Source: Ktedonosporobacter rubrisoli (GTDB lineage Bacteria > Chloroflexota > Ktedonobacteria > Ktedonobacterales > Ktedonobacteraceae). Taken from it: a DNA stretch of 64,000 nt. The first letter of the stretch is position 1; each line of letters starts with the position of its first letter. The position numbers and the translations under genes are program-made. The notes under the pieces are model-generated. The model was not told the origin of the DNA, searched no databases, and worked only from the letters and a program-made list of their open reading frames with translations. Location of the stretch: the NCBI RefSeq assembly GCF_004208415.1, contig NZ_CP035758.1, forward strand, positions 806,001 through 870,000, in the 5' to 3' direction. This document shows, in pieces, positions 36,713 to 54,668 of the stretch.

Positions 36713-36723
36713 ATCAATAACGG

Positions 36724-37432: not shown

Positions 37433-37437
37433 TTTAG

Positions 37438-37634: not shown

Positions 37635-40610
37635 TTATTCCCTCTTGAACCATTCTGCATTTGGGTTTCGGAGGGGGCGGAAGGGGGCTTGCAGCGGCTC
37701 TTTCGGCCAGATGTAGTCACCATTGAGGCTGATATGCTCCCAGCCAAGCGGAGAGGTATGCGGCAACAGTTCATCCGGGATAATAACGCCGCTGTTTCTG
37801 AGTTCGGTAATGGCACGGTTCAGGTAGACCGCGTTCCACAGGATAATGGCGGATACGACCAGGTTCAGCCCGGAAGCGCGGTAACGCTGGTTTTCCAGCG
37901 TGCGGTCATGAAACTCCCCATGCCGGTGAAAGAATACGCTACGCGCCAGAGAGTGACGGGATTCTCCCTTGTTGAGGGTGCCGTGTGAGCGTTTCCGCAA
38001 CTCAGGATCGCTAATCCAGTCCAGGGTAAAACAGGAACGCTCTATCTTGCCTATCTCCTTCTGGGCTTTCGCCAGGCTATGCTGGCGCGGATAGGCACGT
38101 AGCTTGCGCAACAGTACCGAAGGCGCACAGCTGCCTGCCTTGATAGAAGCGGCAAAATGCAGGGTTTCCTCCCAGGTGGCTTCGATATGCCTGAGATCCA
38201 CCGTACCTCCCATCAGTGGGGAGAACACCTCATAGTGGGTGCTTTCCGGCATCCGGTACAGTTTTCGCTCTGCCAAATCCCGGATGCGCGGAGAGAATCG
38301 GATTCCCAGCAGATGAAACAAGGCAAAGATATGGTCTACGGCTCCTGCCGTGTCCGTAAAATGTTCGATAATCTTGAGCGTCGTCTCATGATGCATGATG
38401 GCATCCAGTACGTAGGGTGCTTCGCCAATGCTGGGAGCGATAGGTTGCAGGCCGAAGCCGCCGAACATGTCGCTTTGATGTCCATATAACAACAGGCCGG
38501 GGTCGATGCCGTGTTTGGCGTTATGGCCTGCGCGGTCTTTTCCACGCCCGCCAGAAAGGAAGAACTGCCCATCTGACGAAGAGATCTGTCCGCTGCCCCA
38601 GAAAGCGGCGAGAGGTTCGGCATGCAGGGCATCTACCAGCAGCGCGGTCGCCGGTTTATAGGTTTCATCGCGCACATACCATTCAGCTATCCAGACGAGT
38701 TTGGCATGCGTCAGTTCGCCGGAACTGCGGGCCATGCGTGACAGGCCAAGATTGGTAGCGTCAGCCAGGAGCACGCTCATCAGCGCAAGCATATCCGAAG
38801 GCGGCTCTCCGTTGCGCAGATGCCCGAAGCAGTCGGCAAATCCTGTCCAGTGATTGACCTCCATCAGTAGGTCGGTGATACGCACACGCGGCAGCATTCT
38901 GTAAAGCCGGTATGACAGCTCCTCTGCTTCCGGGGGCGTGCTGCGTTTAATAGGAGATATAGATAATCCTTCCTCATTGAGAACAGCATCAGGTAATTGG
39001 CCGGACTCCGCCAAATCTGCGACGGTCTTCATACGGGTTTCCAGTGCTTCCATACGCTGATCGCGCCAGTCCTCAAAACGTGTCGGGATGCCCAGATTCA
39101 GGTCGCCTTTCTCTTTCTTCTCGATATAGACGGTCTTGGGAAGGAGATATTCATCAAAGGGGCGGAATGCGCGGCTGCCTTCCACCCAGATGCTTCCGGC
39201 AAGGCGGTCACGCAGCTCCACCATGACGGCCACTTCCCACACCTGGCGCTTCTTCTTGACTTCCGCCGCCCACATCAGTTTCTTCCATTTGGGTTGCAGG
39301 AAAGCAACCGGCAGGTTTTCTTTCGCTACCCTCCGATGGGTGGCGTACATTCCCCGTAGCATCTCCAGCGCTGCCAGTAACGGGTCGCCGGGAGTGGCCG
39401 CGCAGAAGGTGAAATGTTCAAGCAGCAAGGGGGCAAGCCTGCGGATAGTAGCATGGCGTTCCAACACATCCTCCAAGCTATCATCGCGTGTGGCCTGGAT
39501 GGCGGCTTCTGCGGCTTTCACCACTTCGGCCAGCCTGTCCCAGCCAATATCTTTCTCGATGGCGCTGTCTGTATCGCCTCCGGTATCATGGGCGGCAAGC
39601 ACGGACTTCGCCAGCTTCAGCAAGGTTTTGGAGGTCTTCTTCAGCACCTTTGCCCTTTCTGACAGATGCTCTTTATGGGATTTTTCTGCGGAACGGAACA
39701 CAGTGCCTATCATTTTACCGGCCATAGCGAGTGCGGCATCAATCAGCAGTGTTTCGGTTTCCCGCGCAAAGACGATGAGTGAGGCAATCCGACGTGCCTC
39801 ATCCTGGCGGGAAAGGTGCTGGGCATCCATGATAGCCACTTCCCGGACGATAGCCATATAACGCGCACGGTGGATACGCTGTTCACGATCCGGCGCTACC
39901 GCAAGCCTGCGCACCGTGTTCAACCGTTCCAGTATGCCTGTGAGGTTCTTGAGCTTGGGCATTTCCTGCCACTGGCGTAGCCAGGCAAACGGCGAGGTTT
40001 TTTCTTCCTCTTTGACGATAAGCAGTGCTTCCAGAGCGATTTTGCAGGCAGCATCCAGTCCGGCAGTCAAGGACTTATAGGCTTGCTGCCGAGCGGTTGC
40101 CCTTGCGGCAAGCGCAATTCGTTCTATCATGGCGGTTGCCGGGAGCAAAATGCGCTTCTGCTGTAGCCAGGTCAGCATCGCCGCTACAATGGCTTCACCC
40201 TTTTCGGTGCCATTGGCTTCTGTGACGGCAGCTTTAGAAAGGGCACGCAGGTCGGAAGCCTGGAACGAGCGCATACCGAGATATGATAGCAGTTCGCTGC
40301 TATGCTCGCGCCGGGTTTCATCACGTTGTGCATACCGTTGGAACACTTTTGGAGCAATGGCAAGCTGCTCGGCTATAAATCCGAGGAGTTCCTCTGGCGG
40401 CGTTTCATCCTGTCCCAGCACCCGTCCCGGATAGCGCATGTAAGCCATATGTACGGCAAAGCCCAGCCGATTCTCTGGCCGCCGCCGTTTCCTTATCAAC
40501 GCCATGTTGTCCTCAGACAAGCTGTAGTATTTGATGATAGTCGCCGGATCTGTCGGCGGATTGAACAACGCAGTGCGTGACTGCGCAGAGAGAATCTCAT
40601 GCTTCTTCAT
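37635..40610 (-). CDS. tnpA: Tn3-family transposase
   Basis: A 991-residue replicative transposase of normal length. The N-terminal part (residues 1-150, SRTALFNPP, YYSLSEDN, RRPENRLGFAVHMAYMRYPG) binds the ends. The catalytic DDE domain has Asp in LLADATNLGLSRMA (about 617), Asp in SSDGQFF (about 680) and Glu in LNKGESRHSLAR (about 900). All are present, so the enzyme should be active. It is divergent from the resolvase gene. Confidence 0.96.
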   Translation of the reverse strand: MKKHEILSAQSRTALFNPPTDPATIIKYYSLSEDNMALIRKRRRPENRLGFAVHMAYMRYPGRVLGQDETPPEELLGFIAEQLAIAPKVFQRYAQRDETRREHSSELLSYLGMRSFQASDLRALSKAAVTEANGTEKGEAIVAAMLTWLQQKRILLPATAMIERIALAARATARQQAYKSLTAGLDAACKIALEALLIVKEEEKTSPFAWLRQWQEMPKLKNLTGILERLNTVRRLAVAPDREQRIHRARYMAIVREVAIMDAQHLSRQDEARRIASLIVFARETETLLIDAALAMAGKMIGTVFRSAEKSHKEHLSERAKVLKKTSKTLLKLAKSVLAAHDTGGDTDSAIEKDIGWDRLAEVVKAAEAAIQATRDDSLEDVLERHATIRRLAPLLLEHFTFCAATPGDPLLAALEMLRGMYATHRRVAKENLPVAFLQPKWKKLMWAAEVKKKRQVWEVAVMVELRDRLAGSIWVEGSRAFRPFDEYLLPKTVYIEKKEKGDLNLGIPTRFEDWRDQRMEALETRMKTVADLAESGQLPDAVLNEEGLSISPIKRSTPPEAEELSYRLYRMLPRVRITDLLMEVNHWTGFADCFGHLRNGEPPSDMLALMSVLLADATNLGLSRMARSSGELTHAKLVWIAEWYVRDETYKPATALLVDALHAEPLAAFWGSGQISSSDGQFFLSGGRGKDRAGHNAKHGIDPGLLLYGHQSDMFGGFGLQPIAPSIGEAPYVLDAIMHHETTLKIIEHFTDTAGAVDHIFALFHLLGIRFSPRIRDLAERKLYRMPESTHYEVFSPLMGGTVDLRHIEATWEETLHFAASIKAGSCAPSVLLRKLRAYPRQHSLAKAQKEIGKIERSCFTLDWISDPELRKRSHGTLNKGESRHSLARSVFFHRHGEFHDRTLENQRYRASGLNLVVSAIILWNAVYLNRAITELRNSGVIIPDELLPHTSPLGWEHISLNGDYIWPKEPLQAPFRPLRNPNAEWFKRE

Positions 40611-40796
40611 GGGGGCTTACTCAGAAATTGTATAGGGAGGATGTCTCATCAAACGCTCGTTTGATGATGCAGGGAGGGTGTCACGTTATTTTTACGGGAA
40701 AGTCGGATATTTTTGTATCATTCTATTGTCTCATTAATTATAGTCGCAAATACGCATCATTGCATAATAATAATGAGATAAGAAGGCAAGCACAGC
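40611..40796. promoter_or_regulatory. Divergent promoter and probable res site of the Tn3 element
   Basis: The 186 bases between transposase and resolvase genes are AT-rich and hold the inverted repeat TCATCAAACG/CGTTTGATGA (40,649-40,670) and further short dyads before the resolvase start. In Tn3-type elements this interval contains the resolution site and both promoters; the exact subsites are not assigned. TCTCATCAAACG recurs at 37,615 near the transposase end. Confidence 0.55.
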
Positions 40797-41384
40797 ATGA
40801 ATAAACAGGTCGGATATGCGCGGGTCAGTTCCCATGCCCAGGATTTGCAACTGCAAATTGATGCGCTCCGCAAAGCCGGTTGTGCTGAAGAACACATCTT
40901 CATTGATAAGGTGTCCGGTGCCCGTACCGAGCGTCCCGGCCTCAATGCCTCCCTGGAACTATTGCAGCCCGGCGATACCCTGACAGTCTGGAGGCTGGAT
41001 CGTCTCGGTCGTTCCATGCCGCATCTGGTTGCCCTGGTGGAAGGCTTGCTCAAGCGTAAGATTGGGTTTCGTTCCCTCTGTGACGGCTCCATTGACACAA
41101 CAACCGCATCCGGCGAGCTGATGTTTAATATCTTCTCGTCCCTGGCACAGTTTGAGCGCCGTCTTATCCAGGAACGCACTAAGGCAGGACTGGCTGCCGC
41201 GCGTGCCCGTGGGCGTAAAGGCGGCAGGAAACAGACCATAAGCGATGACCCGCGAGTCAAAACCGCCAAGCGCATGCATAAGGATCACGGCATGAGCATC
41301 GCTCATATCTGCCAAATCCTCAAAATCTCCCGTGCTACTTTCTACAGATATATCGCCTTACCAGAAGAAAAAAGCGCTGCCTGA
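40797..41384 (+). CDS. tnpR: Serine resolvase of the Tn3 element
   Basis: A 195-residue serine recombinase. GYARVSSHAQDLQLQIDAL carries the catalytic Ser; DRLGRSMPHLVALVEGL and SLAQFERRLIQERTKAGL follow, and the C-terminal HTH is MSIAHICQILKISRATFYRYI. It resolves cointegrates made by replicative transposition. It starts 186 bases from the transposase start, on the other strand. Confidence 0.95.
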   Translation: MNKQVGYARVSSHAQDLQLQIDALRKAGCAEEHIFIDKVSGARTERPGLNASLELLQPGDTLTVWRLDRLGRSMPHLVALVEGLLKRKIGFRSLCDGSIDTTTASGELMFNIFSSLAQFERRLIQERTKAGLAAARARGRKGGRKQTISDDPRVKTAKRMHKDHGMSIAHICQILKISRATFYRYIALPEEKSAA

Positions 41385-41419
41385 CCTCTGTAGGCAACAG
41401 AAATCCTCATATTCTCGTC

Positions 41420-41457
41420 CTTAGCGTACGATTCTGGGAATATTCTGCCATGACCCC
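41420..41457. repeat. Right terminal inverted repeat of the Tn3 element
   Basis: Begins CTTAGCGTACG and ends GCCATGACCCC at 41,457, directly followed by the TTTAG duplication. Inverted copy of 37,438-37,475 with one mismatch. Confidence 0.93.
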
Positions 41458-41931
41458 TTTAGGGTCATCCATGCGCTGTAAAAGCTCTGCAAGCGCACCA
41501 AGAAAGTAGTTCACGCGCATAGACGGATATGATCCTATGCCCTTGACCTCAATAATCCAGCGAGCATTACCTTTACTGGCGTGAATGTCTATACCACGCG
41601 TTTTTCCCCATTTAACATCATAATTCCAGCCATCTGCCGCAAGCCAGTTGGCTATGTGCTGTTTTACAGCATCTTCAGAATGCACATCAAACGCGGCGTT
41701 TGGAGAATTAGGCTGTATTCGCAATGGGGCAGTATCCAACAGGTAGTTACCTATTTTACCGTCGTCCCGATGTATCCTATTAACCACCTTCCTTTGCGCC
41801 AGAAGACGGCAAACGCTGTTGACGGGTTGCTGGAGGCTATTCTTTCCCAGGATTTTGTTTGTCAGTTCCCGGTCGGTTAGACCGGAGAATTGTTGAAGGG
41901 TAGAGATGATCTTTTCGGCAAGGATAGTCAT
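41458..41931 (-). pseudogene. Nuclease-like gene interrupted by Tn3, N-terminal piece
   Basis: 158 codons from the ATG at 41,931 to MDDPK at the transposon. With the piece at 37,292-37,432 it restores a 204-residue protein. An N-terminal winged-helix-like part (LTDRELTNKILGKNSLQQPVN) precedes DGWNYDVKWGKTRGIDIHASKG, WIIEVKGIGS, which has the D...ExK spacing of PD-(D/E)xK nuclease folds. It may have acted in restriction or DNA processing. In its current form the frame runs into the transposon end and stops. Confidence 0.85.
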
Positions 41932-41955
41932 TGGCAGAATATTCTCACTTCACGG

Positions 41956-42450
41956 CTAAACTGGCGGCTTTCTTTTTCCCTGCATCACTTCAATAGCCAG
42001 TTGCCCGTCATCCATTTCCATAATCCTGTTCAGGGTGCCTTCACGGATTTCGTCTGCCAGTTTAAGGCTGGCGGCGAGCACCCCGCGAAGTTTAACGAGT
42101 TGTGCGGTAAGCCTGTCAATTTCCTTGCCCTGGTCGGCGCTGGTCATCTCTTTCTCGAACCGGCGCAACTGCTCCTCATAAAGCCACAGGTCTTCAAGCT
42201 GACTGCCATGCACTTCATAGACGCGGTTGATAGCCAAATCATCCATGACATGCGGCTTTTCCCTGGCCTGCTGCAAGCTGCCATATACTTCTTCAGCCGC
42301 TTCCAGCATTCCATCTATCATCCATGCCACACGGGGCATTTCCGTAATTTTCAGCCATTGGGGAGAAGGGCCTGTTTTCATTCGTTCCTGACTTACCTCA
42401 AAAGCGGTTGCGGCAAAGCGTCGCAACCGCACAAAATCATTTATTATCAT
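41956..42450 (-). CDS. Plasmid protein of unknown function
   Basis: About 164 residues, mostly helical and charged, with a possible coiled coil near LEDLWLYEEQLRRFEKEM and IDRLTAQLVKLRGVLAASL. The start at MIINDFVRLRRFA (42,450) is chosen because upstream codons overlap the primase gene. No domain recognised. It follows the primase gene by 44 bases and precedes the interrupted nuclease-like gene, so the three probably form an operon. Confidence 0.55.
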   Translation of the reverse strand: MIINDFVRLRRFAATAFEVSQERMKTGPSPQWLKITEMPRVAWMIDGMLEAAEEVYGSLQQAREKPHVMDDLAINRVYEVHGSQLEDLWLYEEQLRRFEKEMTSADQGKEIDRLTAQLVKLRGVLAASLKLADEIREGTLNRIMEMDDGQLAIEVMQGKRKPPV

Positions 42451-42494
42451 CTTACTATGACGCAAGCCGTCTTTTGTCAAAGGGTAATCGGGGG

Positions 42495-43463
42495 TTAGAG
42501 CTGCCGTGAGGTTTGGGTTGCTTTTTCGATGGTCATCTCCCCATAGGTCGCGCCGTCGCTGCGGTGTACAGTGTCCCATTTCTGTTGCAGCTCTTCATCC
42601 TGCCGGTACATATTCGATGCTTTGAAAAGCCGCTCCACCTGCCCTTCGTCTCCATTCGTCCAGTAGACCAGCATGGCGATAAGGGCAAGCTGTGCTTCGG
42701 AGCGGCTGCGGTAGCCAGTGATATCGCCAGAACATAAACGGGTGAACTTGGCTCCGTTCCTGGCCTCGCCTGCTTTTTTCAGCAATGCCTGGTCATCCCG
42801 CGTAATGGGCTGGTAGCGCCTGATAGTCTCCGGTTCGGGACGTGGCTGCTGCCTGGGCGGTTTCAGTAGCGCATAAATTTGATGGATGGCTTCCTGGTCT
42901 GTCCGGATCTCGCGCTGCTCCCCTACCCGCTCGCCGGTAATGGTGATGTAGCGCTTCGCCGCGTACATCTCGCCCTTGTCCGATTTCATGCCGAGGACAG
43001 GATGGCCGTTTTCTGCTGGCAGACTCCCTCGCAGGAAAATATGCAGTCCTTTCCCGCTGGGGCTTACCTCCGTGTAGGATTGCGCCAGGTCGAACACCTG
43101 CCTGGCGGTTCGGGTGATGCGCCGCACGCCGTCTATGTCCCGCAGGCAGTTGTCGAGGTCAATGACGACGATGCCGCTATTCTCCAGCATGAACCCGACG
43201 CCCTGATAGTGGCCGGTATCGAGCGCGGCCATTGCCTGCGTGTAACTGCACCAGCCCTGCGGGTCGTCCACGCTGGCAGCTCTGCCGCCTGGTTGAAACG
43301 GTGGCTTTTTCGGCTTGTCCTTGCCGGGGATGTGCTGGTATTTCCAGAGCACCCATTGCGGGATGGATTTGAGCAGCTCCGGCACATTGCCGCTGTGTAT
43401 CCGTTCGGCAATCCCGCCGTCCGCCAGTACCATCCCCCTGCCCCCCCACCCGTGTTTACTCAA
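42495..43463 (-). CDS. Phage/plasmid primase N-terminal-type protein (NrS-1 polymerase-like)
   Basis: About 322 residues from a TTG at 43,463, or 312 from the ATG at 43,433 after a G-rich stretch. SIPQWVLWKYQ, then GVGFMLENSGIVVIDLDNCL and SPSGKGLHIFLRGS are the catalytic core of bifunctional primase-polymerase-like proteins; SRSEAQLALIAMLVYWTNGDEGQVERLFKAS is the following helical domain of NrS-1-like proteins. The usual helicase half (D5_N and AAA+) is missing; a C-terminal primase fragment lies 7.5 kb away in the chimeric frame at 34.8 kb. Confidence 0.78.
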   Translation of the reverse strand: MSKHGWGGRGMVLADGGIAERIHSGNVPELLKSIPQWVLWKYQHIPGKDKPKKPPFQPGGRAASVDDPQGWCSYTQAMAALDTGHYQGVGFMLENSGIVVIDLDNCLRDIDGVRRITRTARQVFDLAQSYTEVSPSGKGLHIFLRGSLPAENGHPVLGMKSDKGEMYAAKRYITITGERVGEQREIRTDQEAIHQIYALLKPPRQQPRPEPETIRRYQPITRDDQALLKKAGEARNGAKFTRLCSGDITGYRSRSEAQLALIAMLVYWTNGDEGQVERLFKASNMYRQDEELQQKWDTVHRSDGATYGEMTIEKATQTSRQL

Positions 43464-44538
43464 AACTGCCGAGGTGCAGTATCGTGGCTATTTTGTGCTG
43501 TCAGGCAAGGGATTTATGCCGCCTTCAACACAGGCTCTTTTTTTGTTGACAGTTTCTCATGAGCGTCCTATGTTATTTTGGGTTATTTTTATGATGTGCT
43601 TAATATTGTGCTGTGGTGTTCATTCTGAGACGCCCATTTGTTCAATGGGCATGAAACTGTACGGAGTGTGTCAGAGAATAGCCTGGCGTGATGGATAAAG
43701 ATAAAAAAGTTTCTATATCGGCTACATTGAGTGTACCGACATGTTTCGGCAGACCTGCTATGGCAGCAGCCTGCTAAATAAATATTTCAACCGTTGGATG
43801 ATTATCAGAACGTGCGGTTACATTGCCCAGGCGGCAATCGGGGATTGCATCTCATTCTTAACGATGCAATCATCTAGTCTCTCTATGCGTAACGTCAAAC
43901 GAGCGAGCGCGGAAGAGTAGCGGAATGGAATATAAACAGGCTAGTTTTGTAGCCGCAGGCTCCAGCGTTCTACCTCTTTCCTCTCTTCCTCGTTGCCCCA
44001 GCGGCTATTTTCTTAATAGCAATCTGATGCAGCCTGATTTCAGGCATCCTATGCCTCCCCCCCGTTCTCTGTCAAGGTAAATTTCCTGTATCACTCAGGA
44101 TGCCGGTCTAAGGCAAAGATGGCCGGTTCCCCATTTTCATTTTGCCGAGCCTGCGCCGCCTGTGGCGGCGCACTCAGCCATATATTATGCGCGGCGCTGT
44201 GAGCCGCGCACAGTTTTATAACTTGCCAGAGGGGGGATAGCGAAGCTGTGCGAAGCGTAAGGGGGGAGATGCGCAAATCATCGCCCCCCTTCTTAAACAA
44301 ATAGGCTATGTGAGCGAAGCGAACTCCGTTTATAGGGATGAATGGTAAAGAAGGGACTCCTTCTTTACGCGAACGAAAGGCTCGTATGCCTTGAGTTCGC
44401 AAAGCACAAGGATGGATTTTTGTAGGGTGTTGTATGTGCCTTTCTAAAGTTCTCTATATATATTTATTTGGGATAAGAAGGATAAGGAATTTAGACGCCG
44501 AATTGTGGCCTATAATACAGTAGTATAGCGGTTTATTA
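43464..44538. other. Gene-poor stretch next to the origin with hairpins and a promoter
   Basis: No convincing gene. A plus-strand promoter TTGACA (43,546) and TATGTT (43,569) is 17-spaced. Hairpins are GCCCATT/AATGGGC (43,632-43,650), TGCGCCGCC/GGCGGCGCA (44,152-44,172), TGCGCGGC/GCCGCGCA (near 44,189-44,211) and GTAAAGAAGG/CCTTCTTTAC (44,345-44,368). The part after 44,440 is AT-rich and leads into the iterons. This could hold countertranscript RNA or single-strand origin functions. Confidence 0.5.
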
Positions 44539-44916
44539 GGAGAGTCAAAGCTATATAATTGATCCTTTTTTCCAAGTCTGGAGAGTCAGAACTATACATT
44601 GAGCGGCTATTAGAGAGTCAAAACTATATATTTGTGGTTTTTAGAGAGTCAAAACTATATATTCGGCGAGTTAGAGCTATAGATTTGCTTGTGGATAAAA
44701 TGCTTTTTAGTGTGGTATTTTTGTAACGAATAGTTTTTAGAGAGTCAAAACTACAGATTTTTCTACGATTTGCAGGATATCAAATTAAAAGAGAGTCAAA
44801 ACTATATATTACCTGGGGATAACTCTAAATTTAAGAGGCTGATGAGTACAAAGTTTGGAGAGTCAAAGCTATATATTGAAGCCTTTTTCTATTTTGGAGA
44901 GTCAGAACTATATATT
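44539..44916. repeat. Iteron array (eight good copies, one weak)
   Basis: Direct repeats of about 21 bp, core GAGAGTCAAAACTATATAT, at 44,539, 44,580, 44,612, 44,643, 44,739, 44,790, 44,857 and 44,896, with a degenerate copy near 44,666. Variants have CAGAACTAT or CAAAGCTAT. The surrounding DNA is AT-rich. This is the hallmark of an iteron-controlled plasmid origin. The last copy lies inside the end of the rep gene and encodes IYSSDSP. Confidence 0.9.
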
Positions 44917-45962
44917 TTGTGTTTTATTTCCTTAGTACGTGTGTTTGCCTTAATCGAATCTGATACAAAATGTGGGTTTGGATGTAGTGAAAACATTGCA
45001 TCAATAAGCTTGCTCCGCTTGGAGCTTTCTAACACTTTATCAATGTGATAAATTATTAAGATCTTTTTTTCTTTCATTTCTTCAAGAGCAATTTCTACAT
45101 CGCGCAAATTACCTGAAAGTTTAGCGTATTTAGTAAGACCAAAATCCCGAATAATAGTTGTGAGTGATATAGTATAGGGGATATGTATGCTAGCTTGGGT
45201 GAAATGATGGCTCATGCGTTTGTGGAGTTGCCGGGCAATAACGCTCCTATAACTCATCACTTTTTCGTAATTTATTTGTCTGAAGGTCAGATCTTCAATG
45301 CTTTTTGTTACTAAGGAGTTAAATCTAACGAAGGCTTTGGTGCTTTTACCTTTTGTTTTCCAATCTTCGCGGGTTTGAAGGCCCACTGTTTCAAATATAT
45401 TGGATATAACAATGGCTTTGCCCTCTTCGTTTGTAACTGTGAGGTTTGTCCTGGCGCATATCATCAGTGCGTCTTTAAGCTGTTGGATGCTGTAGCTGTG
45501 ATCGTTTTTCTTTAGTTCTTCTTGCAACTGATAAAGGGTAAATGTAACACCGGCCATACCATCCAGAAAGTACCCCTGTCCTTCGGCCATAAATTTTCTA
45601 AGTGCATCCTCAATTATTTCCTCACGTTTGGACGGATAATAATAACGGGCGATACCATCTTTATCTTTTATGACGGCAGGGCTTATCTGTACTTTATATT
45701 TGTGTGTTCTACATTCAAATTCCCGTTCCAATAAGTCGAGAAACTTATCAGCAATTCGTTCGACCTTTCCATAGGTGTATTTCGGAATAAAGTCATATAG
45801 TTCAATCGTATTGGAATAGTCCTTGTCTTGTGGCAACAGCATTTCAAAGAGGGTAAGCTGTTGAGGCTTAGAGTGATCATAGTTCTCAAGCTTTTTTGAT
45901 ACGGCCACAGCTAGAACTTTTGGTGCTTCATCCAATTTCTTTTTGCTTTTACTTGTGGTCAT
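44889..45962 (-). CDS. Plasmid replication initiator (Rep)
   Basis: A 357-residue protein placed directly beside the iterons. It has QQLTLFEMLLPQDKDYSNTIELYDFIPKY near the start, a winged-helix-like body (SYSIQQLKDALMICARTNLTV) and a second one (SLTTIIRDFGLTKYAKLSGNLRDVEIALEEMKEKKI), the two-domain plan of iteron-binding initiators. The exact Pfam family is not certain; RPA/TrfA-like is the best guess. AACGAGGTG precedes the ATG. It should bind the repeats, open the origin and limit copy number. Confidence 0.72.
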   Translation of the reverse strand: MTTSKSKKKLDEAPKVLAVAVSKKLENYDHSKPQQLTLFEMLLPQDKDYSNTIELYDFIPKYTYGKVERIADKFLDLLEREFECRTHKYKVQISPAVIKDKDGIARYYYPSKREEIIEDALRKFMAEGQGYFLDGMAGVTFTLYQLQEELKKNDHSYSIQQLKDALMICARTNLTVTNEEGKAIVISNIFETVGLQTREDWKTKGKSTKAFVRFNSLVTKSIEDLTFRQINYEKVMSYRSVIARQLHKRMSHHFTQASIHIPYTISLTTIIRDFGLTKYAKLSGNLRDVEIALEEMKEKKILIIYHIDKVLESSKRSKLIDAMFSLHPNPHFVSDSIKANTRTKEIKHKIYSSDSPK

Positions 45963-46074
45963 GCCGTTTTTCCAATTTACACCTCGTTTTTAATTTAGGG
46001 TTTTGGCGTGTCCCCTTACTCGTCCACAATCCGACTTAATCCGTACTTTATAAACAGGACATTAATTGCCTCAA

Positions 46075-46410
46075 TTAGCATTGATTTTCTGACTTCGCCT
46101 TTTGCAGCAAAATTAAAGCCTCTTCTGTGATTTCGCTAATTTCCCTGCCCTCCGTCGCCGCCTGTATGTCTAGCCACTTTGCGGTTGAGGGTTTGAGATA
46201 AACGCCTTTTTTGGTACGCTGTTCTTTAGCTTTTTTATGCTGGGATACCGGGATAGCAGTATCTTGGGATACTGGTATATCAGGCAGTTGAGATACTAAG
46301 GTATTAGTATCTTGTTCTATTACTTGTTGCTGTGTGCTGAGAACTGCGCCGAATGAGCTTTTAATTTTTGGGCGTTGCCTGGTCTGCGGGGCGGTCTTTT
46401 GGGCAGGCAT
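46075..46410 (-). CDS. Small ParB-like/ribbon-helix-helix partition partner
   Basis: A 111-residue protein that begins two bases after the ParA stop. The C-terminal 45 residues, KKGVYLKPSTAKWLDIQAATEGREISEITEEALILLQ, look like a ribbon-helix-helix DNA-binding unit; the N-terminal half is a linker rich in Gln, Thr and VSQ repeats. Its DNA contains palindromes (46,257-46,274 and 46,291-46,312) like the repeats upstream of parA. By position it is the centromere-binding partner of ParA. Confidence 0.65.
   Translation of the reverse strand: MPAQKTAPQTRQRPKIKSSFGAVLSTQQQVIEQDTNTLVSQLPDIPVSQDTAIPVSQHKKAKEQRTKKGVYLKPSTAKWLDIQAATEGREISEITEEALILLQKAKSENQC
46257..46312. repeat. Palindromes inside the partition gene
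   Basis: CAGTATC/GATACTG around TTGG (46,257-46,274) and AGATACTAA/TTAGTATCT around GGTA (46,291-46,312) are both perfect and share the GTATCT and GATACT words of the repeats at 47.25-47.71 kb. They could be additional binding sites within the coding sequence. Confidence 0.55.
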
Positions 46411-46411
46411 G

Positions 46412-47208
46412 TTAAGCTATCTCCTTAGTTTGCAATCTATTCTTTGTCAGAGTATCCTTAAACAAGGTTCTCGCCAGTCTGCTCCAATATTTGCCTAGAT
46501 CCTTGTCAACGTCGCTTATATCCGCCCTGTTTCCTACGGCCTTTTTGTATCCCGTGCGGCGTGGCAGCACTTCACTATATAGCTCCTGGGCGTAGTCACT
46601 TCTTAAAATTTCTAATATTCTGCGGTCTTCGCCTTCGCGTATATCGTACATGGTGGCTATGATGCCCCATAATTTTATAGCCGTGTTTACTTCGCTTTCC
46701 TTGATTTCATCAATCTGCGCCAGGGTTTGCGGTAATGTCCTGATACCCATTTCCTCTGTTGCCATTGGGACTATAACAAAGTCACTCGCGCCTAAAACGT
46801 TACGTGTCAAGAGGCCGATTGCTGGCGGACTGTCCATCAGGCAGATGTCAAACTCGCCATCATACAATCTAAGGCGCTGCCGTAATAATGCTTGTGGATT
46901 GTTATAACTCGCTATTACTAGCTCTGCTTCTGCCAGTTTGGTATTAGCTGGCAATATATACAGGTTTTCCATGAGCTGAACAGGTTCTATTCTGACCTGG
47001 CCGCGCTTATCTAGTAACATTTCCGCCATGCTTGGGTTAATGGCTTCTTTTGTTTCAAGGTCAATAAAATATTCTGTCAAGCTACTTTGCCCGTCCATAT
47101 CCACTAGCAGCGTTTTTAACCCTCTGCGAGCTGCGGCTGTGCCTAGTGATATTGTGGTGGTTGTCTTTCCTACCCCCCCTTGTTGCTGGATATGCCATAT
47201 TTAACCAT
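46412..47208 (-). CDS. parA: ParA-family partition ATPase with disrupted start
   Basis: The protein reads IWHIQQQGGVGKTTTTISLG (deviant Walker A), LLVDMDGQSSL, DICLMDSPPAIGLLTRNVLGASDFVIVP and so on, about 264 residues, typical of plasmid ParA. The matching start is ATG GTT AAA at 47,208, but one base is missing before ATATGG, so the ATG is out of frame; in the main frame a TAA stands right before an ATA codon at 47,200. Either a sequence error, a non-standard start or a recent frameshift. ParA drives segregation with the gene at 46,075. Confidence 0.8.
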
Positions 47209-47246
47209 TGATCCTGCTCCGTTATTGTAAAACAAGCAGTAGCAAC

Positions 47247-47712
47247 AAGTATCTTAGTAGTCAAAGAGATAAATAAATTAAAGCACCAATAGATTAATTT
47301 ATTTATATATTGATAATTTTATATCTCAGTATCCTAGTAGATTGGTCGTCCTGGTTACTACCAATGGGAGGGTATTTCATTAGGGACACAATAATAACAA
47401 GTACCTTAATAGCCAAAGAGACAAATAAATTAAGGTACCAATAGATTAATTTACCTATATATTGGTAGCTCCATATCTTGGTATCTCAGTATCCCAATAG
47501 ACTTGCCGCTCTGCTACTGACAACAGATGATGTTTCATCAGAAAAACAGTAGCAGCAAGCATCTTGGTAGCCAGAGAGACAAATAAATTAAGACACTAAT
47601 AAATTAACTTACCTATATATTGGTAGCTCCGTATCTTGGTATCTCAGTATTCTAGTAGATTAATCGCTCCGGTTACTGATAATAGATGATATTTCGCTAG
47701 AAAAGCACCAAA
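47247..47712. repeat. Three tandem ~155-bp repeats upstream of parA, centromere-like
   Basis: Units start at 47,247, 47,399 and 47,557 with AAGTATCTTAGTAG or close variants, continue with AAATAAATTAA and TACCTATATATTGGTAG, and contain GTATCTTGGTATCTCAGTAT. The DNA is strongly AT-rich. Tandem repeats just upstream of a parA operon are the usual form of a plasmid centromere and operator. No gene lies in 47,209-47,749. Confidence 0.75.
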
Positions 47713-47749
47713 TTAGCCATAGGAATTAAGAATAGCTGTATCGTTGCCA

Positions 47750-47983
47750 TTAAGTGATATACCCTCTCCGCTCTTTCGTTGCCCTCTGTTTCTGAAAAGC
47801 AACCTGCGCTTCGTCGCTGGTAGGGTAGGGGATACTACGCACCTGGCCGGGCCGTCCTATTCGTCCCCATTCACGGATGAGGCACTGATTTCCGAACAGG
47901 TCAGGCTGTAGATCCAGCCTATAAAAACGCTTCATATTCCTGGCTGGGTCAATATGGTAGAGCGTAACGGGGGCAGGGGCCAT
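47750..47983 (-). CDS. WGR-domain protein
   Basis: A 77-residue protein, essentially one WGR domain: TLYHIDPARNMKRFYRLDLQPDLFGNQCLIREWGRIGRPGQ. WGR domains bind nucleic acid ends and occur in PARPs and in bacterial plasmid proteins of unknown role. It starts two bases after the true end of the recombinase gene, so the two are co-transcribed. The frame is continuous with the frameshifted recombinase only by accident. Confidence 0.82.
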   Translation of the reverse strand: MAPAPVTLYHIDPARNMKRFYRLDLQPDLFGNQCLIREWGRIGRPGQVRSIPYPTSDEAQVAFQKQRATKERRGYIT

Positions 47984-47985
47984 AA

Positions 47986-48559
47986 TCAATCTCCACTTCC
48001 TTGTTTGAGATATTGGTACAACGTCTCGCGGCTGATGCCGTATTCTCTGGCAAGGTGCTTCTTCTTCTCGTTTGCATTCACCCGCCGACGCAACTCCTCG
48101 ATTTTCTCCGGATAATGATTTCTTGCGTCCCTTATACACTCCGCGCTTCTTGGCGAGGACAATCCCTTCCTGTTGGCGTTCCCTAATCAGGTCGCGCTCG
48201 AACTGTGCCACTCCTCCCAACACGGCAAGCATAAGGTTAGCCAGAGGCGAGTCATCACCAGTGAATGTAAGGTTTCCCTTAATGAACTGTACGCATATTC
48301 CGCGACTGGTCTGGGTTTTGACAATCTGCCGGAGGTCATCCAGGTTACGGGCGAGCCTGTCCATGCTGTGAACCACGATGGTATCGCCTTCACGGGCATA
48401 GTTTAATAGTTCCTGCAATTTGGGGCGTTCTGTGTTTTTACCGGATGCCTTGTCAATGAAGAGGCGATCCAGCTCTCCCATGTCTTCGAGCTGGCGGGCC
48501 TCGTTCTGGTCGTAGCTGCTAACCCTCACATACCCGATGCGTTGTCCCTTAGATGCCAT
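47986..48559 (-). pseudogene. Serine recombinase, frameshifted in the HTH linker
   Basis: The catalytic domain is intact: IGYVRVSSYDQNEARQLEDM, HSMDRLARNLDDLRQIV, GGVAQFERDLIRERQQEGI. After GRKKSLS the frame shifts; one frame over the DNA reads EKIEELRRRVNANEKKKHLA, REYGISRETLYQYLKQGSGD and stops at 47,986, the expected C-terminal helix-turn-helix. One base is missing near 48,107. The product of the present frame lacks DNA-binding specificity and runs into the WGR gene. It is a plasmid resolvase/invertase relative. Confidence 0.8.
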
Positions 48560-48788
48560 TTTTACCCCATTTTGTCAGGATAGACTCTAAGAGATAACAT
48601 GACATATGTCAATAAATAAGATTATCAATCCTACTCTGACATGGTTGGAGGTGCTTCTTGACTGTCCGGTTAGGGTGTACCCCAGATACACACTCTTGGT
48701 ACAAGCTCGTCATTTGCTGAAGTCTACTTTTGGGGTAGTGGATATTATGTAATGCGTCCGGCGATTACCACCGGACGCTTACCAGTAA

Positions 48789-49289
48789 TTAGATAACCTT
48801 ATTCTGCCATGCTTCCGGTGTGAGCAGAGAAGTCTGCATTTGCTCAGTACCGCAGCACTTAAACCATGTCGGGCTGGGATTGTTCGTGTAATACCATTTG
48901 CCGTCTTCCATACGGTAGAAGTACACCCATTCCGTCCATGCCTCTTCAAGCATAGCGCATAGCTCATCATAGTTTTTGTAATGCCGGGCTTCCGTGTCGG
49001 TCTCGTTCCGATCACGCGCATAGGCTGTGCATATCTTGCCGTATTTCTTTTCATGCGCCTGGCGTTGCGCTTCCGTCATATGGATAGTGTCAAACGGGTG
49101 CTTTTCGCCTATCTCTTCACCGAGGGAAGACAGGTCGCCTAATGCAAGTAGCTGCTTAATCTTCTCTATGTCCTGGTAGTGCTCATAGAGGATTTTTCCA
49201 TTGTGCGACGGATAGCCATCCCAATGACAGTAGATAACGTCATAGCTGCCATCTAAGTTCTGTATGCCAATATTTGAACGTGTACCCAT
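48789..49289 (-). CDS. Conserved phage/plasmid protein of unknown function
   Basis: A 166-residue protein beginning MGTRSNIGIQNLDGSYDVIYCHWDGYPSHNG, a conserved opening seen in uncharacterised phage and plasmid proteins. The centre has a helical charged part, the end WYYTNNPSPTWFKCC. AAAGGAGAA stands before the ATG. No catalytic motif recognised. Confidence 0.7.
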   Translation of the reverse strand: MGTRSNIGIQNLDGSYDVIYCHWDGYPSHNGKILYEHYQDIEKIKQLLALGDLSSLGEEIGEKHPFDTIHMTEAQRQAHEKKYGKICTAYARDRNETDTEARHYKNYDELCAMLEEAWTEWVYFYRMEDGKWYYTNNPSPTWFKCCGTEQMQTSLLTPEAWQNKVI

Positions 49290-49748
49290 AAACTTCTCCT
49301 TTTCGTTATCGGAGGCTGCCCCTATGCAGCCTCGCTTCCGGCGAAAGGAAATGCCGGTAGCTGGAAGCGATGCGGGTCATAGCATTTTGTTGCGCGAGGA
49401 ATGGCGCGAAGCGACAGGGGAAAATGCGTTATTGACGCGCTCGCGCTATCGGCTTGCCTCGCCGGGATAAGCGAGATGCAAAGGGAGTGGGCAGTAGGGG
49501 AAGAATATGGTGAGCAAAATTCAAGACAGGGATGCTATCGGGAATAGAAGGTTATCGGTAGCATTGTCAATGCCGGAGAAAGCGCCTGCCCATGACCGTG
49601 ATACCGACCACGGATGCAGCCCCGTATAACTATGGATAGGCTCCCAAGTTATCACCAGGCGCTTGAATTACTGAAACGTAGTTTGAACAAAACGCACCAT
49701 ACCACAAGGCTCAGGCGAGGTTTTATGTATCTGCATCTTTCTGCGAGG
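49290..49748. other. 459-bp gap without a recognised gene
   Basis: Contains GC-rich sequence with repeated GCGAAGCGA/GCGCGAGG words up to about 49,470, then mixed sequence. It precedes the minus-strand gene at 48,789 and may hold its promoter. A plus-strand frame at 49,614-49,832 overlaps the next gene and has no family match. Confidence 0.4.
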
Positions 49749-51260
49749 CTATTTAACAGTAAAGATAATTTCAAATTCACCAGCGAATACATGTTGATAG
49801 GATTCAAGCTCATGTTTAAATCTGTCGCTTAGATAACCAATAAAGCTCCAGCTAGATTTTTCCTGGTCGTTCCAGTAATCAAGCACAAGATCTTCCAGAC
49901 TTTTTGTTTTGAGCAGATAAGCGAACTCCTCCATCTCATTAACCGCGCATAGTATAAGCGGAGCCTGCTCTATAAGGGTAGAAGCTAGCCCTGCCTCTAC
50001 TAGCTTATTCCTGACAATTTCCCGAAGCCGTTCAAGCTCAGGCCCCATTAAACGCCAATTTTCCAACGTAACAACACAAATAAATGGGCGTTTCATCGGA
50101 TTATACGGATATTGCTGTGGCCTATATTTACCATTTTTATAGGCTTCAAGGGCTTGATAGGATTGTACTGCTGCTTTGCCTATCACTTCAAGTTGAGCAT
50201 GTAGCTCCATGTCATCCTGAATATTCGTCCGTGCGCCGATGGTCATACGTTTCGTCTTGCACTCTACGAGCATAAAAGAGGTAGGCTGATCGATGATCCA
50301 ATCGGCCCGCTTAGGTCGCGTATCAGGTTCTTCTGGGTAGACCGTAGACGACGTGCCAATAAGCGTTTTTTCAAGCATGTCACCGACATAATCTTGGAAC
50401 GCAGTGCCGAATGCCTGATCAAAGCCTGGCTCCTTGACCAGATCGTAGAACAAACCTGAGCTAATGCGCCAGAACAGCAGGGTAGGGATAGGACAAATAT
50501 GAGATGCGCGATTATTTAATTCTGTAAGAATTAAGGGGTAACTCTGAAGAGTATGGAACTGATACATAAATGTGTTATCGAGCTTACGTTCGGCTGTTAA
50601 ACGTTGCTTCAGCTCTTTCATAGGCAGTGAGTATAACTGTATAAATTTGTCATAATCAGCCTGAGTGATACCTGGTAGTGACAGATCATCAAGCGGATAA
50701 TGTACACCGAGGTATTGGGTAACATACTTAATCCACAAGATAGCCCCAATCGTAAATAGCTGCTTTGGTAATAAGCCCGTTTTTGCTTTTACTATTGGCT
50801 CGACTGACAGATGTCCAAAAATATGACTATAACGAACCATAGCTGCCTTGCTGGGATGCTCTGTCTGATATTTAAATTGTTGATGAGGAATACGGACAGT
50901 GACTTCCTGCAAAATTTTTTTATCGTCCACTAAATACTGAGAAATATAATTCTCTAACTCCCTTAGCTTGTTGATTAGGCTCGCAAAGGTATCCCATTTG
51001 CGACCAGTGTACCGCGTACTTGGCTGAGAATTACAGACAATAATTGCTTCACGAGCAAGAATTTCCATTTCCCAGGGAAGAATGAGGCGCTCGTCTGAAT
51101 ACACGGCCCGATGCACTTCCATATCTGCTGGGAATGGGGATGGTGTACGAACGGCCTTAAATGCAGAGTAAACCTTGATAACGCCTAATGTGTCATTAAG
51201 ATCAAGTTTCCTTAAAGCATTTCTTAGTGGCGTCCAGCCCCCATAAGCGTTGTTAATCAT
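49749..51260 (-). CDS. Large protein with PD-(D/E)xK nuclease-like core
   Basis: About 503 residues from MINNAYGGWTPLRNALRK; the frame is open further to a GTG at 51,311. Near residue 340 it reads RPKRADWIIDQPTSFMLVEC, KTKRMTIG, fitting the D...ExK active site of restriction-like nucleases; a helix-rich part follows. The N-terminal 300 residues (YTGRKWDTFASLI, SLPGITQADYDKFIQLYSLP) have no match I know. Its place beside other unknown genes and a type I R-M system suggests anti-phage or DNA-processing activity, which is inference. Confidence 0.65.
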   Translation of the reverse strand: MINNAYGGWTPLRNALRKLDLNDTLGVIKVYSAFKAVRTPSPFPADMEVHRAVYSDERLILPWEMEILAREAIIVCNSQPSTRYTGRKWDTFASLINKLRELENYISQYLVDDKKILQEVTVRIPHQQFKYQTEHPSKAAMVRYSHIFGHLSVEPIVKAKTGLLPKQLFTIGAILWIKYVTQYLGVHYPLDDLSLPGITQADYDKFIQLYSLPMKELKQRLTAERKLDNTFMYQFHTLQSYPLILTELNNRASHICPIPTLLFWRISSGLFYDLVKEPGFDQAFGTAFQDYVGDMLEKTLIGTSSTVYPEEPDTRPKRADWIIDQPTSFMLVECKTKRMTIGARTNIQDDMELHAQLEVIGKAAVQSYQALEAYKNGKYRPQQYPYNPMKRPFICVVTLENWRLMGPELERLREIVRNKLVEAGLASTLIEQAPLILCAVNEMEEFAYLLKTKSLEDLVLDYWNDQEKSSWSFIGYLSDRFKHELESYQHVFAGEFEIIFTVK

Positions 51261-51404
51261 ACAAACAATTATATTTATCCCGTCAAGTCGGGTGCGAGGC
51301 TGCACTCCCACCCGGACAGCTTTCCGTATCTGATCACGTCTTCAGATAACGCGGTCGCGAATTTATAGATTAGCAGACAGGAGTTGGGGCTTAGGCTGTC
51401 TCTT

Positions 51405-51470
51405 AATTCGGTGAGTAGACATATTTGTCCGCTAAGTCACATTTCACAATTTAATAGACACCCCATCATA
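51405..51470. other. Possible solitary IS end or regulatory dyad
   Basis: In the 356-bp gap 51,312-51,667, TGTCTCTTAA and TTAATAGACA form an imperfect inverted repeat around GTAGACATATTTGTCCGCTA. It looks like an insertion-sequence end, though no transposase is present. Confidence 0.35.
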
Positions 51471-51590
51471 CCGACGCACGCTCGCCTCCTAATTCATAAA
51501 TTCGTGGAGAATGAACAGTAGGGAAAGAAAGAATATTTTTCAGAAAGGCGATATTTCGGGTTATATCTCACTGGCAGCGTTAAGCAGAAT

Positions 51591-51626
51591 AAATAGCTAC
51601 CGACCCTAAATTATCGGTAGCTATTT
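51591..51626. terminator. Strong bidirectional hairpin terminator
   Basis: AAATAGCTACCGA and TCGGTAGCTATTT form a perfect 13-bp stem with a 10-nt loop and T-rich flanks on both strands. It is 42 bases after the stop of the zinc-ribbon/HEPN-like gene, which it should terminate. Confidence 0.85.
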
Positions 51627-51667
51627 ATTGATGTTGCTTAATTGCCGAAATCAAATCTGGAAACGGC

Positions 51668-52675
51668 TTACACTAATTTTCTCAGCTCGTCGGCCAGCTT
51701 TGTAACAAGTTCAGCAAGTCGGCTTACTGCTCCTTCCCGAATGACAAGCCGCTGCCCGATGACATAGGTAGTATCTCCTGATTTAGTGATATAGTCCTGG
51801 TCAACGATGCCTTCACAGTGGGCAAAAAGGTGGCGTTGCTGGAACAACCGCAAGAGGTCAGCCATTTCGGCAGGTGTTAGGAGGTCTGCATATCCCTTGC
51901 CGGTTGCAGCATTCCACAGAGCTGATCCTTCGGATAGATTCTGGAAGACATTCTTCCTACGCCGCGTGGTCGGGGCCGCAGGAGTGCGGTCAAAGAGGGC
52001 TTCTGCTAACCGCTGGAAAGCCCCTACCAACCGCCCCATGTTGTTTTCCAGGATTTCGCGTACTGTATTCTTTGCGGCATCTGCGTCGGCTACGGCCTGC
52101 ACTGCCTCTCGTATAGCAAGTAAAGCCGATAGGGATTTCTGTACCGCTTCGATGGTCTGCGAGAAGGTGCTTTCTGCCGAATTATGACCACAGGCAGGAC
52201 AGAAGAATGCGGCTCCGAGGGAGGAATATCGGCAGCCACATTGCTCACAGGTAAATTTCTGCCTCAATTCTTCGGCGGCACTAATAGGAATAATCAGCGT
52301 CGGAGCGCCTGGTTTGTAGGACATGGACATGTTAATAAAGCCAGGGCGCTGCCTGCGGTTAAAATCGCGTGCATCCTGAGAGAGTGCCTGGCCGATTTTG
52401 CCCTGGATATAATTGATTCCGGCCTGGCGGATATACTCTTGCTGCTCCGAGGTACTCCACTCGGTTGCTTTCGCTTCCTCACGACAGATCGGACAGAACA
52501 CTTGAGCATCACTGACCTTCTGCTTCCAGTCCTCCATTAGAACCTTAAAGTCAGCCTGACACGCTTCAGAGGGACAACGCCGATCAAAGTAACCGTCGTT
52601 ATCAGTAGGCATCGAGATGGTAATTTGGCTTCCGGCCTCTATCTTTTTTAGCTCTCGGAGAATATTATCAAACAC
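51668..52675 (-). CDS. Zinc-ribbon protein with HEPN-like C-terminal domain
   Basis: A 335-residue protein. Cysteine pairs CPSEAC and CPIC (residues 34-62) and CEQCGC with CPACGH (about 142-164) form two zinc ribbons. The last 90 residues are helical with LLRLFQQRHLFAHCEGIVDQDYI, an R-x4-H motif as in HEPN ribonucleases, followed by YVIGQRLVIREGAVSRLAELV. Zinc-ribbon/HEPN proteins are found in anti-phage and RNA-cleaving systems; activity is not proven here. It ends in its own terminator and follows the C39-like gene by 30 bases. Confidence 0.6.
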   Translation of the reverse strand: MFDNILRELKKIEAGSQITISMPTDNDGYFDRRCPSEACQADFKVLMEDWKQKVSDAQVFCPICREEAKATEWSTSEQQEYIRQAGINYIQGKIGQALSQDARDFNRRQRPGFINMSMSYKPGAPTLIIPISAAEELRQKFTCEQCGCRYSSLGAAFFCPACGHNSAESTFSQTIEAVQKSLSALLAIREAVQAVADADAAKNTVREILENNMGRLVGAFQRLAEALFDRTPAAPTTRRRKNVFQNLSEGSALWNAATGKGYADLLTPAEMADLLRLFQQRHLFAHCEGIVDQDYITKSGDTTYVIGQRLVIREGAVSRLAELVTKLADELRKLV

Positions 52676-52705
52676 TTACACCTTCTATTCCACTCAATGA
52701 GTGTT

Positions 52706-53170
52706 TTAATATGTTACTGTCTTGGAGTCTGCTACAGCGAGAAACTCATTATGAAACACGGCCCCCTGACTTCTACGTTGCAGAATATACTCCCCTATAT
52801 CCACATGTGGAGGAGCATTATCAGCAGGGTCTATGATCCCCAGCTCGTCCACGGCAACAATATGTGAATACTTTATATGAGGAACATCGAACATTAAAAG
52901 GCCAACTACGCTGCCTCTATATTGTGGCAGGCTATACAACTCCATAAACGGACGATACTCTATGAGAAAGCCTTCATCTCTAAGATATGTCTCCCACCAC
53001 CCATAAAATTTACCCTCTTCCGAAATTTTGGGATATTTCTCACTATCTTGCAGAACACGCTCATAGCTGTATTGATGTCCCATGACCATTGCTACAACAC
53101 AAATTGTACAGTCTGTTTTACCCCTTTGGGGAATTCGTTGAATCATCTTCTCCACCTGGATTTTTCCCAA
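52706..53170 (-). CDS. C39/papain-like cysteine peptidase-fold protein
   Basis: A 154-residue protein. RIPQRGKTDCTICVVAMVMG has the Q...DC..C pattern of C39-type peptidases, and YSHIVAVDELGIIDPAD supplies the His and Asp. No membrane or ABC domain is attached, so it is a stand-alone cytoplasmic protein. Possible roles are toxin maturation or deubiquitination-like processing. It is 30 bases upstream of the zinc-ribbon/HEPN-like gene in the same direction and may be co-expressed. Confidence 0.6.
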   Translation of the reverse strand: MGKIQVEKMIQRIPQRGKTDCTICVVAMVMGHQYSYERVLQDSEKYPKISEEGKFYGWWETYLRDEGFLIEYRPFMELYSLPQYRGSVVGLLMFDVPHIKYSHIVAVDELGIIDPADNAPPHVDIGEYILQRRSQGAVFHNEFLAVADSKTVTY

Positions 53171-53243
53171 TGTATGGGATAGGTGGGTTAATTATACAGC
53201 TCCCTCTATCAACGTACAAGCCAGACGCAGCCGTAGCGGACGG

Positions 53244-53906
53244 TTAGACCGCGCAAAGCCTGTTTGCTGCCAGAGCGTGATACCTAGTATCCAGTTCGAT
53301 GCCAAGATATCTGCGGCCTAAGCTCTTTGCTGCGTGAAGGGTAGAGCCAGAACCGGCAAACGGGTCAAGCACTAGGCCGTCATAGGTTGAAAACGTCTCC
53401 ACCAGTGGCAGAAGCGCCGAGAGGGGTTTCTCGGTCGGATGCAGCCTATTGCCGCTGTAAACGAAGTCAATTACGTCGCCAATCGGGTATTCCGGCTCGT
53501 TCGGATAGCCCTTCGCCAACAGATACGCGCATTCATGCTGGTAACGCAGGTGACGCGAGCCGGAAGTGTAACGCTTCGGAAATACCAGATGCCCAACGAT
53601 GCGGAACCCTGCGGCGCGGAAAGCGTTCATAAAGCGATCTGCCTGCGGCCATCCATAGAAGCTGACGCAGAAGCTATTGCGGGCAAGGACGCGGTACATT
53701 TCGGCAAAGGCCGGTTTCAGCCAAGCATCGTTATCATCGTTCTGGATGCTGCGGCCTGAGCGATCCTGGTATCGGGTAATATAGGGCGGGTCAGTGAGAA
53801 TGAAGTCAACACTTCCGGCTGAAATCTGAGGCATGACACGTAAGCAGTCGCCATGAATAATGGTATTGCTGTTGATAGTTTCAAATGTGAGCGGTGCGGA
53901 AGTCAT
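53244..53906 (-). CDS. N6/N4 DNA methyltransferase
   Basis: A 220-residue adenine or cytosine-N4 methyltransferase. The start at 53,906 follows AAAGGAGAT with good spacing. Motif IV TDPPYITRYQDRSGR comes first and the SAM motif VLDPFAGSGSTLHAAKSLGRRYLGIE last, the beta-type order. LHPTEKPLSAL precedes motif I. No nuclease partner is beside it, so it is likely a solitary plasmid methyltransferase that protects against restriction. An in-frame extension to 54,059 is not supported. Confidence 0.92.
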   Translation of the reverse strand: MTSAPLTFETINSNTIIHGDCLRVMPQISAGSVDFILTDPPYITRYQDRSGRSIQNDDNDAWLKPAFAEMYRVLARNSFCVSFYGWPQADRFMNAFRAAGFRIVGHLVFPKRYTSGSRHLRYQHECAYLLAKGYPNEPEYPIGDVIDFVYSGNRLHPTEKPLSALLPLVETFSTYDGLVLDPFAGSGSTLHAAKSLGRRYLGIELDTRYHALAANRLCAV

Positions 53907-54141
53907 CGGCTTATCTCCTTTTACGTTGTTAGGAACTGCCGAAAAGCGGGAACCGGCGCGGCTGCCAGCTCCGACGCGGGGCACCTGTCTGCACAAGCGA
54001 AGCGCGGAAGATGGGGCGGGAGGAACTGGCATGCCCTGCGGCGGGCTTCCGCTAGACAAGTGACCGAAAACAACGAAAAAGGAATAAGGCGTACCGTTCT
54101 GCCGGTACGGAACCCGTCAGCGGGCAATCTATAGAGAACTG

Positions 54142-54327
54142 TTACTGTGGGTTAGAGAGGGATTGCTGAAAGGCCGCTGCTACGAGCTTCTTCTGCTGCC
54201 TTAGCCAAGCATCCTCGGATGGCGTCAAAGGATGATTGACGAGCAAGATATCCTGCCTCGACTTCGGTAAGGCAGTCGAGGCTGTAACCAAAGGTTTCTT
54301 GCCAGAATATGTCGGATTCTTGTCCAT
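54142..54327 (-). CDS. Possible small protein
   Basis: A 61-codon frame (SRQDILLVNHPLTPSEDAWLR) between the methyltransferase and the ParDE genes. An overlapping frame of 63 codons in another register is equally open (54,152-54,343). Neither has a clear ribosome site; at most one is real. Confidence 0.25.
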   Translation of the reverse strand: MDKNPTYSGKKPLVTASTALPKSRQDILLVNHPLTPSEDAWLRQQKKLVAAAFQQSLSNPQ

Positions 54328-54379
54328 GCTTTGACTTTAGCATATGTATTGCCGCAGGGGTAACAAAAAGTGGAAGGAT

Positions 54380-54664
54380 TCAGCTATGAACAGGTAAATC
54401 CCTGGCGCTATGCGGAATATGCAAAATAACAATGTCGTCGGCCTGGAGTGTATAGAGTATCAGGTAGTTGCCGAAGGGAAGCTTTCGGATGTCCTCACCG
54501 TATTCCGGTGCGAGTGGATATCCTCGCGGTGCGTGGGCGATGTGACGACAACGTTCCCGGATTTCTTGTACGAAAGAAAGGGCACGGGCGGGATTATCGA
54601 GCGCAATATAGTCCGCGATGCTCTCCAGGTCGGTTTCCGCCTGCGCCGTGAAAATACAGAACAT
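54380..54664 (-). CDS. parE: ParE-type toxin
   Basis: A 94-residue RelE/ParE-superfamily toxin: FTAQAETDLESIADYIALDNPARALSFVQEIRE, then APEYGEDIRKLPFGNYLILYTL and VILHIPHSARDL. ParE proteins poison DNA gyrase. The antitoxin gene ends five bases before it. It stabilises the plasmid-like element by killing cells that lose it. Confidence 0.9.
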   Translation of the reverse strand: MFCIFTAQAETDLESIADYIALDNPARALSFVQEIRERCRHIAHAPRGYPLAPEYGEDIRKLPFGNYLILYTLQADDIVILHIPHSARDLPVHS

Positions 54665-54668
54665 GAGG

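Follow-up and report, generated by a model that had tools for sequence, protein, structure and literature searches.

An IncA/C-class replicon in a 54.8-kb element, very probably an integrated plasmid, in the chromosome of Ktedonosporobacter rubrisoli (Chloroflexota)

For IncC plasmids, a published study describes a single DnaA box together with 11-14 iterons, each 19 bp long (PMC7433901). SGI1, an integrated island with its own rep and an iteron origin 3' of it, has been demonstrated experimentally to replicate after excision, and was compared in the same paper with actinobacterial ICEs of the pSAM2 type (PMC7433901). The latter are likewise integrated and have a dedicated origin and rep. Closer to the organism studied here, related genera of Ktedonobacteria own second replicons that resemble chromids, measure 1.5-3.5 Mb and have parA close to the predicted origin (PMC13289182); in these replicons of megabase size, from the same bacterial group, no Rep was found by Pfam.

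The locus described here shares with the IncA/C (IncC) replicon, for example pYR1, a homologous initiator (~36% identity over ~90%), ~20-bp iterons 3' of rep and a DnaA box; it differs in the iteron sequence, the Chloroflexota host and the integrated state, and in having ParA and a small partner, whereas in pYR1 mobI lies beside rep. By analogy, the element would work most like SGI1, although the Rep of SGI1 carries RepA_C (PF04796), a domain not found in the present Rep, and SGI1 encodes xis and needs an IncC helper plasmid, whereas this element has an IncA/C-class Rep and a serine recombinase. The pSAM2-type ICEs, in contrast, use rolling-circle initiators, while here an iteron initiator, presumably of the theta type, is combined with a serine recombinase.

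We analyzed a window of 64,000 nucleotides, positions 806001-870000 of the single 11.34-Mb contig NZ_CP035758.1, the marker-gene completeness of which is 95%. The replication and partition genes in this window very probably form the core of an integrated plasmid, a 54.8-kb element inserted site-specifically in the chromosome, since there is one 11.34-Mb contig, a single chromosomal gene is divided between the two ends of the element, and the right end carries a large serine recombinase. The integrated element is 54,781 bp long, and the window carries its left 28.3 kb (35693-64000). The features at the left border are:

34753..35692, minus strand: C-terminal part of the interrupted regulator, MmyB-like ligand-binding domain (PF17765, 3.4e-51; the frames of relatives are intact)
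35693..35696, no strand: attL core TCTA, left end of the element (junction analysis; the right end is contig 896474, beyond the window)
35693..64000, no strand: left 28.3 kb of the presumed integrated plasmid (junction analysis)

The exact left border was derived from the split regulator gene. The regulator ORF (34753-35757) can be aligned to its relatives, which have intact frames of 413-421 codons with an N-terminal HTH, only from residue 20 onward. Its missing N-terminal part is found at contig 896700-896467, 54,781 bp from the left border and adjoining the large serine recombinase; both halves are ~80-92% identical to the intact relatives. The left and right junctions have TCTA in common, and rejoining the chromosomal flanks yields a single open regulator frame of 388 aa. 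The integration target is an HTH/MmyB-type regulator gene. The attP site rebuilt from the element ends, GTGTTCAAGCGTTCTACAATGACTGGACACC, is an imperfect palindrome with a dyad of 14/25, which was reached in 93 of 20,000 shuffles. The G+C content falls from ~53% to ~40-48% near 43.5 kb and is low across 44-64 kb compared with ~53% outside, and to the right of the element end there are ordinary chromosomal genes again. Long direct repeats were looked for as element borders and none were found. A tRNA as the left att site was ruled out, because neither the Rfam scan nor the tRNA scan of the window gave a hit.

The single-contig assembly, as well as a contamination estimate of 11.75% (though similar-size relatives show 11-17%), would be compatible with an assembly chimera, that is, a free plasmid that was linked to the chromosome only during assembly. 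We consider this very improbable, because complementary halves of one gene at the ends, a 4-bp core shared by both, and a border with a serine recombinase are not what a random misjoin would give. The split gene also contradicts the reading of the whole contig as a megaplasmid or chromid with the module as its native origin and the chromosome-like genes as cargo. Such a reading could draw on the chromid-like replicons of related genera mentioned above, but with a contig of 11.34 Mb that is 95% marker-complete, and with the module inside a 54.8-kb insertion with defined ends, it is scarcely credible. An earlier note on this DNA had left the choice between an integrated plasmid and a megaplasmid with chromosomal-type cargo; the split gene and the border recombinase decide for the former. 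Its view that the left 34 kb are chromosomal is confirmed, and the borders are at 35693, contig 841693, on the left and at contig 896474 on the right, the latter beyond the stretch that the note covered, both with TCTA.

The large serine recombinase (690 aa; Resolvase, Recombinase and Zn-ribbon domains) ends at attR and has an intact reading frame. Related integrases in other genomes were not found beside pieces of this regulator. The integrase frame crosses the att site (contig 896461-896478), with 690 aa in the integrated form and 726 aa in the circular one, so the C-terminus would differ between the two states. It is conceivable, if rather doubtful, that the element alternates between the chromosomal state and an autonomous IncA/C-type plasmid, and that the 690- and 726-aa forms of the integrase bias the direction of recombination.

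The replication region of the presumed integrated plasmid comprises:

44540..44916, no strand: iteron array, putative replication origin region (eight iterons and one degenerate copy, 20 bp each; 3' position family-wide)
44690..44698, no strand: perfect DnaA box TGTGGATAA within the iteron array (sequence match)
44889..45962, minus strand: rep, predicted replication initiator of the IncA/C RepA family (homology; tentative C-terminal winged-helix match to RepE/Pi/pPS10 RepA)

Rep has 357 aa and an intact reading frame, and sequence comparison identifies it as a member of the IncA/C RepA family: TBLASTN found relatives on 1301 plasmids (at least 80% of the protein covered in 1270), and the best IncA/C-family RepA relatives, including that of IncC pYR1, are 35-40% identical over ~90% (1e-64, 36% over 90% for IncC RepA). 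At the DNA level, the plasmid search returned only fragments of at most 68 bases. There was no meaningful match to Rep in Pfam, NCBIfam or PHROGs, nor among PDB sequences, whether Rep was used singly or as a profile. The blank in Pfam is a library gap, since the IncC RepA itself is without a Pfam match, and Pfam-only screens, as reported for the second replicons of Ktedonobacteria, are blind to this initiator class. The structure model of Rep, built from two sequences, has low confidence (mean pLDDT 42) and only residues ~239-345 are usable; in this model residues 239-345 align best to RepE54 (Z 8.5), Pi (Z 7.6) and pPS10 RepA (Z 7.3). The apparent resemblance of the C-terminal ~100 residues to the winged-helix initiators RepE, Pi and pPS10 RepA is taken as no more than supporting evidence, because these Z values are close to those of unrelated models.

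Eight iterons GAGAGTCAAAACTATATATT with at most two mismatches each are located at 44540, 44581, 44613, 44644, 44740, 44791, 44858 and 44897, and a degenerate ninth one, with five mismatches to GAGAGTCAAAACTATATATT, at 44666. In 6-kb sequences simulated with an identical dinucleotide composition, 0 or 1 match occurred at up to five mismatches. The array overlaps the 3' end of rep and continues beyond it. The iteron core TATAGGTTTG (one mismatch) occurs five times in the window in the orientation of rep, compared with a shuffle mean of 0.035, and is also enriched in the rep sense in three relatives (Pseudoalteromonas, P. rhodesiae and Alcaligenes); this search detected no iteron array in FeN3W or Azospirillum. 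Wherever an array could be identified in a relative, it lies 3' of rep; this holds for IncC pYR1, two Halomonas, Pseudoalteromonas, Alcaligenes, P. rhodesiae, Marinobacter and an environmental MAG. The iteron sequence differs among the relatives, and a DnaA box is often present on their plasmids. Thus both the eight iterons and the adjacent initiator of the earlier note are real, the latter being a true homolog of plasmid replication proteins; the counter-evidence named in the note, a Rep without kinship to iteron-binding proteins or a lack of repeat conservation in relatives, was looked for and not observed.

Among 400 Chloroflexota genomes the initiator is present in this one and in none of the 399 others, and the Ktedonobacteria relatives searched have no homolog of it. 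One relative was found among genome contigs, in a MAG, and none among viral contigs. In a tree of 15 members, the branch of Rep also contains the MAG and the alphaproteobacterial members (100/99), and the gammaproteobacterial plasmids are placed elsewhere. With only 39% identity to its nearest relative, Rep was not acquired recently from known plasmids. What is new is an IncA/C-class replicon that occurs in Chloroflexota on a serine-integrase element; no paper on such an element in Chloroflexota was found in the open-access literature. It extends to Chloroflexota the class of IncA/C RepA replicons, otherwise seen here on Proteobacteria plasmids and in one MAG.

The presumed partition module lies upstream of rep, in the same direction, and consists of a gene of 111 codons, then parA and three direct repeats of ~158 bp:

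46075..46410, minus strand: candidate ParA partner, 111 aa, downstream of parA (weak PHROG Arc-like hit; two C-terminal helices in a low-confidence model)
46412..47208, minus strand: parA, type Ib-like, without N-terminal HTH (PF13614, AAA_31/ParA, 6.8e-34; frame broken at C7 as deposited)
47229..47711, no strand: three ~158-bp direct repeats upstream of parA (TRF score 432; three copies aligned)

As deposited, parA runs from the ATG at 47208 through MVKYGISSNKGG to a stop, and the rest (VGKTTTT...) lies one frame away; the break is a C7 run (47173-47179) within the Walker A motif. A genuine mutation, an error at the homopolymer or a slippage site could each explain this break. A real defect would suggest either that selection no longer maintains partition or that slippage yields ParA. 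Hence the ParA of the earlier note stands as a family match with a broken frame, and the parts of its 'complete' replication and partition module do lie together, but completeness is unproven, given the disrupted parA frame of the deposited sequence. Separately, 460 kb of sequence contain four G/C runs of 7, and three of these fall inside the element.

The small DNA-binding partner of the earlier note corresponds to a gene that is in place, while its family hits are weak (Arc-like repressor, E 0.11); it is probably a ribbon-helix-helix protein. The tandem centromere-like repeats proved to be real and are a probable centromere/operator. The N-terminal stretch of the partner gene (46160-46320) and the repeats (47209-47720) have 48 7-mers in common, for example in AGTATC/GATACT contexts, compared with at most 46 in 1000 synonymous shuffles; this overlap may mark a binding site inside the gene or be a by-product of the tandem repetition. 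The excess of centromere motifs in the partner gene was significant in the window and not in the one related Ktedonobacteraceae parA locus tested. Three ParA relatives in the family have no repeats of the 158-bp type, and their genomes are without this Rep. Palindromic repeats of ~35 bp and of the TATACCTATAG type precede a different parA locus in the genome of another member of the Ktedonobacteraceae.

The remaining annotated features of the element in the window are:

37438..41457, no strand: nested Tn3-family transposon (56-bp inverted repeats with one mismatch; NF033527, 2e-296; TSD TTTAG)
37635-40610, minus strand: TnpA of the Tn3-family transposon (NF033527, 2e-296)
40797-41384, plus strand: probable TnpR (by inspection only)
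42495..43463, minus strand: plasmid/phage-type primase, Prim-Pol with NrS-1-like domain (phrog_1829, 1.3e-67; PF22763, 3e-17)
47750..48559, minus strand: serine resolvase fused to a WGR domain (PF00239, 4.4e-36; PF05406, 2.9e-18)
49749..51311, minus strand: GapS1-like protein, putative defence (NF047931, 5e-16, well below the NCBIfam cut-off)
53244..54059, minus strand: DNA methyltransferase, N6_N4_Mtase (PF01555, 1.9e-30)
54380..54986, minus strand: ParE toxin (54380-54664; PF05016, 2e-19) and RHH/ParD-like antitoxin (54669-54986; PF01402, 6.9e-6)
55296..61296, plus strand: type I restriction-modification operon hsdM, hsdS, hsdR (domain matches)
61367..63716, minus strand: UmuC-like polymerase, UmuD/LexA-like S24 peptidase and SRAP protein (domain matches)

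The primase, ParDE and serine resolvase, which the earlier note had counted to the replicon backbone, were all recovered by domain matches; the resolvase-WGR protein has a probable role in multimer resolution. The Tn3-family transposon is a secondary insertion that splits a ~210-codon frame of no known function, as the TSD and the joined frame agree. This insertion and the frame defect of parA would fit a degenerate relic, integrated and dead, which is a version of the integrated-plasmid explanation that differs only in the ability to leave or replicate. Rep, the iterons, the DnaA box and the integrase frame are, however, intact, and the one-base change at the C7 run could be a sequencing error; we regard a dead relic as possible but unlikely. 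Phage-family matches of the serine recombinase, the primase and a DarB-like antirestriction/helicase protein (1899 aa, contig 869878-875577, right of the window, high in G+C within a low-G+C element) might point to a phage-plasmid or prophage instead of a plasmid, but no capsid, terminase, portal or tail family was found among the proteins scanned with PHROGs or Pfam, and such an origin appears very unlikely.

Building on the observed anatomy, borders and homology, the following course of events can be proposed for an integrated plasmid. The large serine recombinase most likely recombined the plasmid attP with attB in the HTH/MmyB-type regulator gene, with the crossover at TCTA, and in the integrated state the element would be replicated passively. 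After excision to a circle, Rep would bind the iterons just 3' of rep; together with DnaA at the DnaA box close by, it would melt the neighbouring AT-rich DNA and start theta replication, as expected from the family. Segregation of the plasmid would be the task of ParA and its small partner, with the ~158-bp repeats serving as both centromere and operator. With the rep gene, iterons, integrase and attB, a ready candidate for an origin and for a site of integration is available to those who build genetic tools for Ktedonobacteria.

Right of the window the element encodes a TraG/VirD4-like coupling protein whose relatives occur on plasmids; one such relative has mobC and a relaxase gene next to it. 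No PF03432-type relaxase was found in the element, the larger ORFs scanned had no Pfam match to a MOBH relaxase or an MPF_F transfer system, and these scans showed nothing of a transfer apparatus beyond the TraG/VirD4-like protein. Two proteins of 485 and 368 aa beside the TraG-like gene (L003:13045-15596, where L003:3878 is contig 869878) have no Pfam or PHROGs match, and the 485-aa protein had no match among plasmids. Within the window, the GapS1-like protein clusters with the methyltransferase, and these may be undescribed defence genes.
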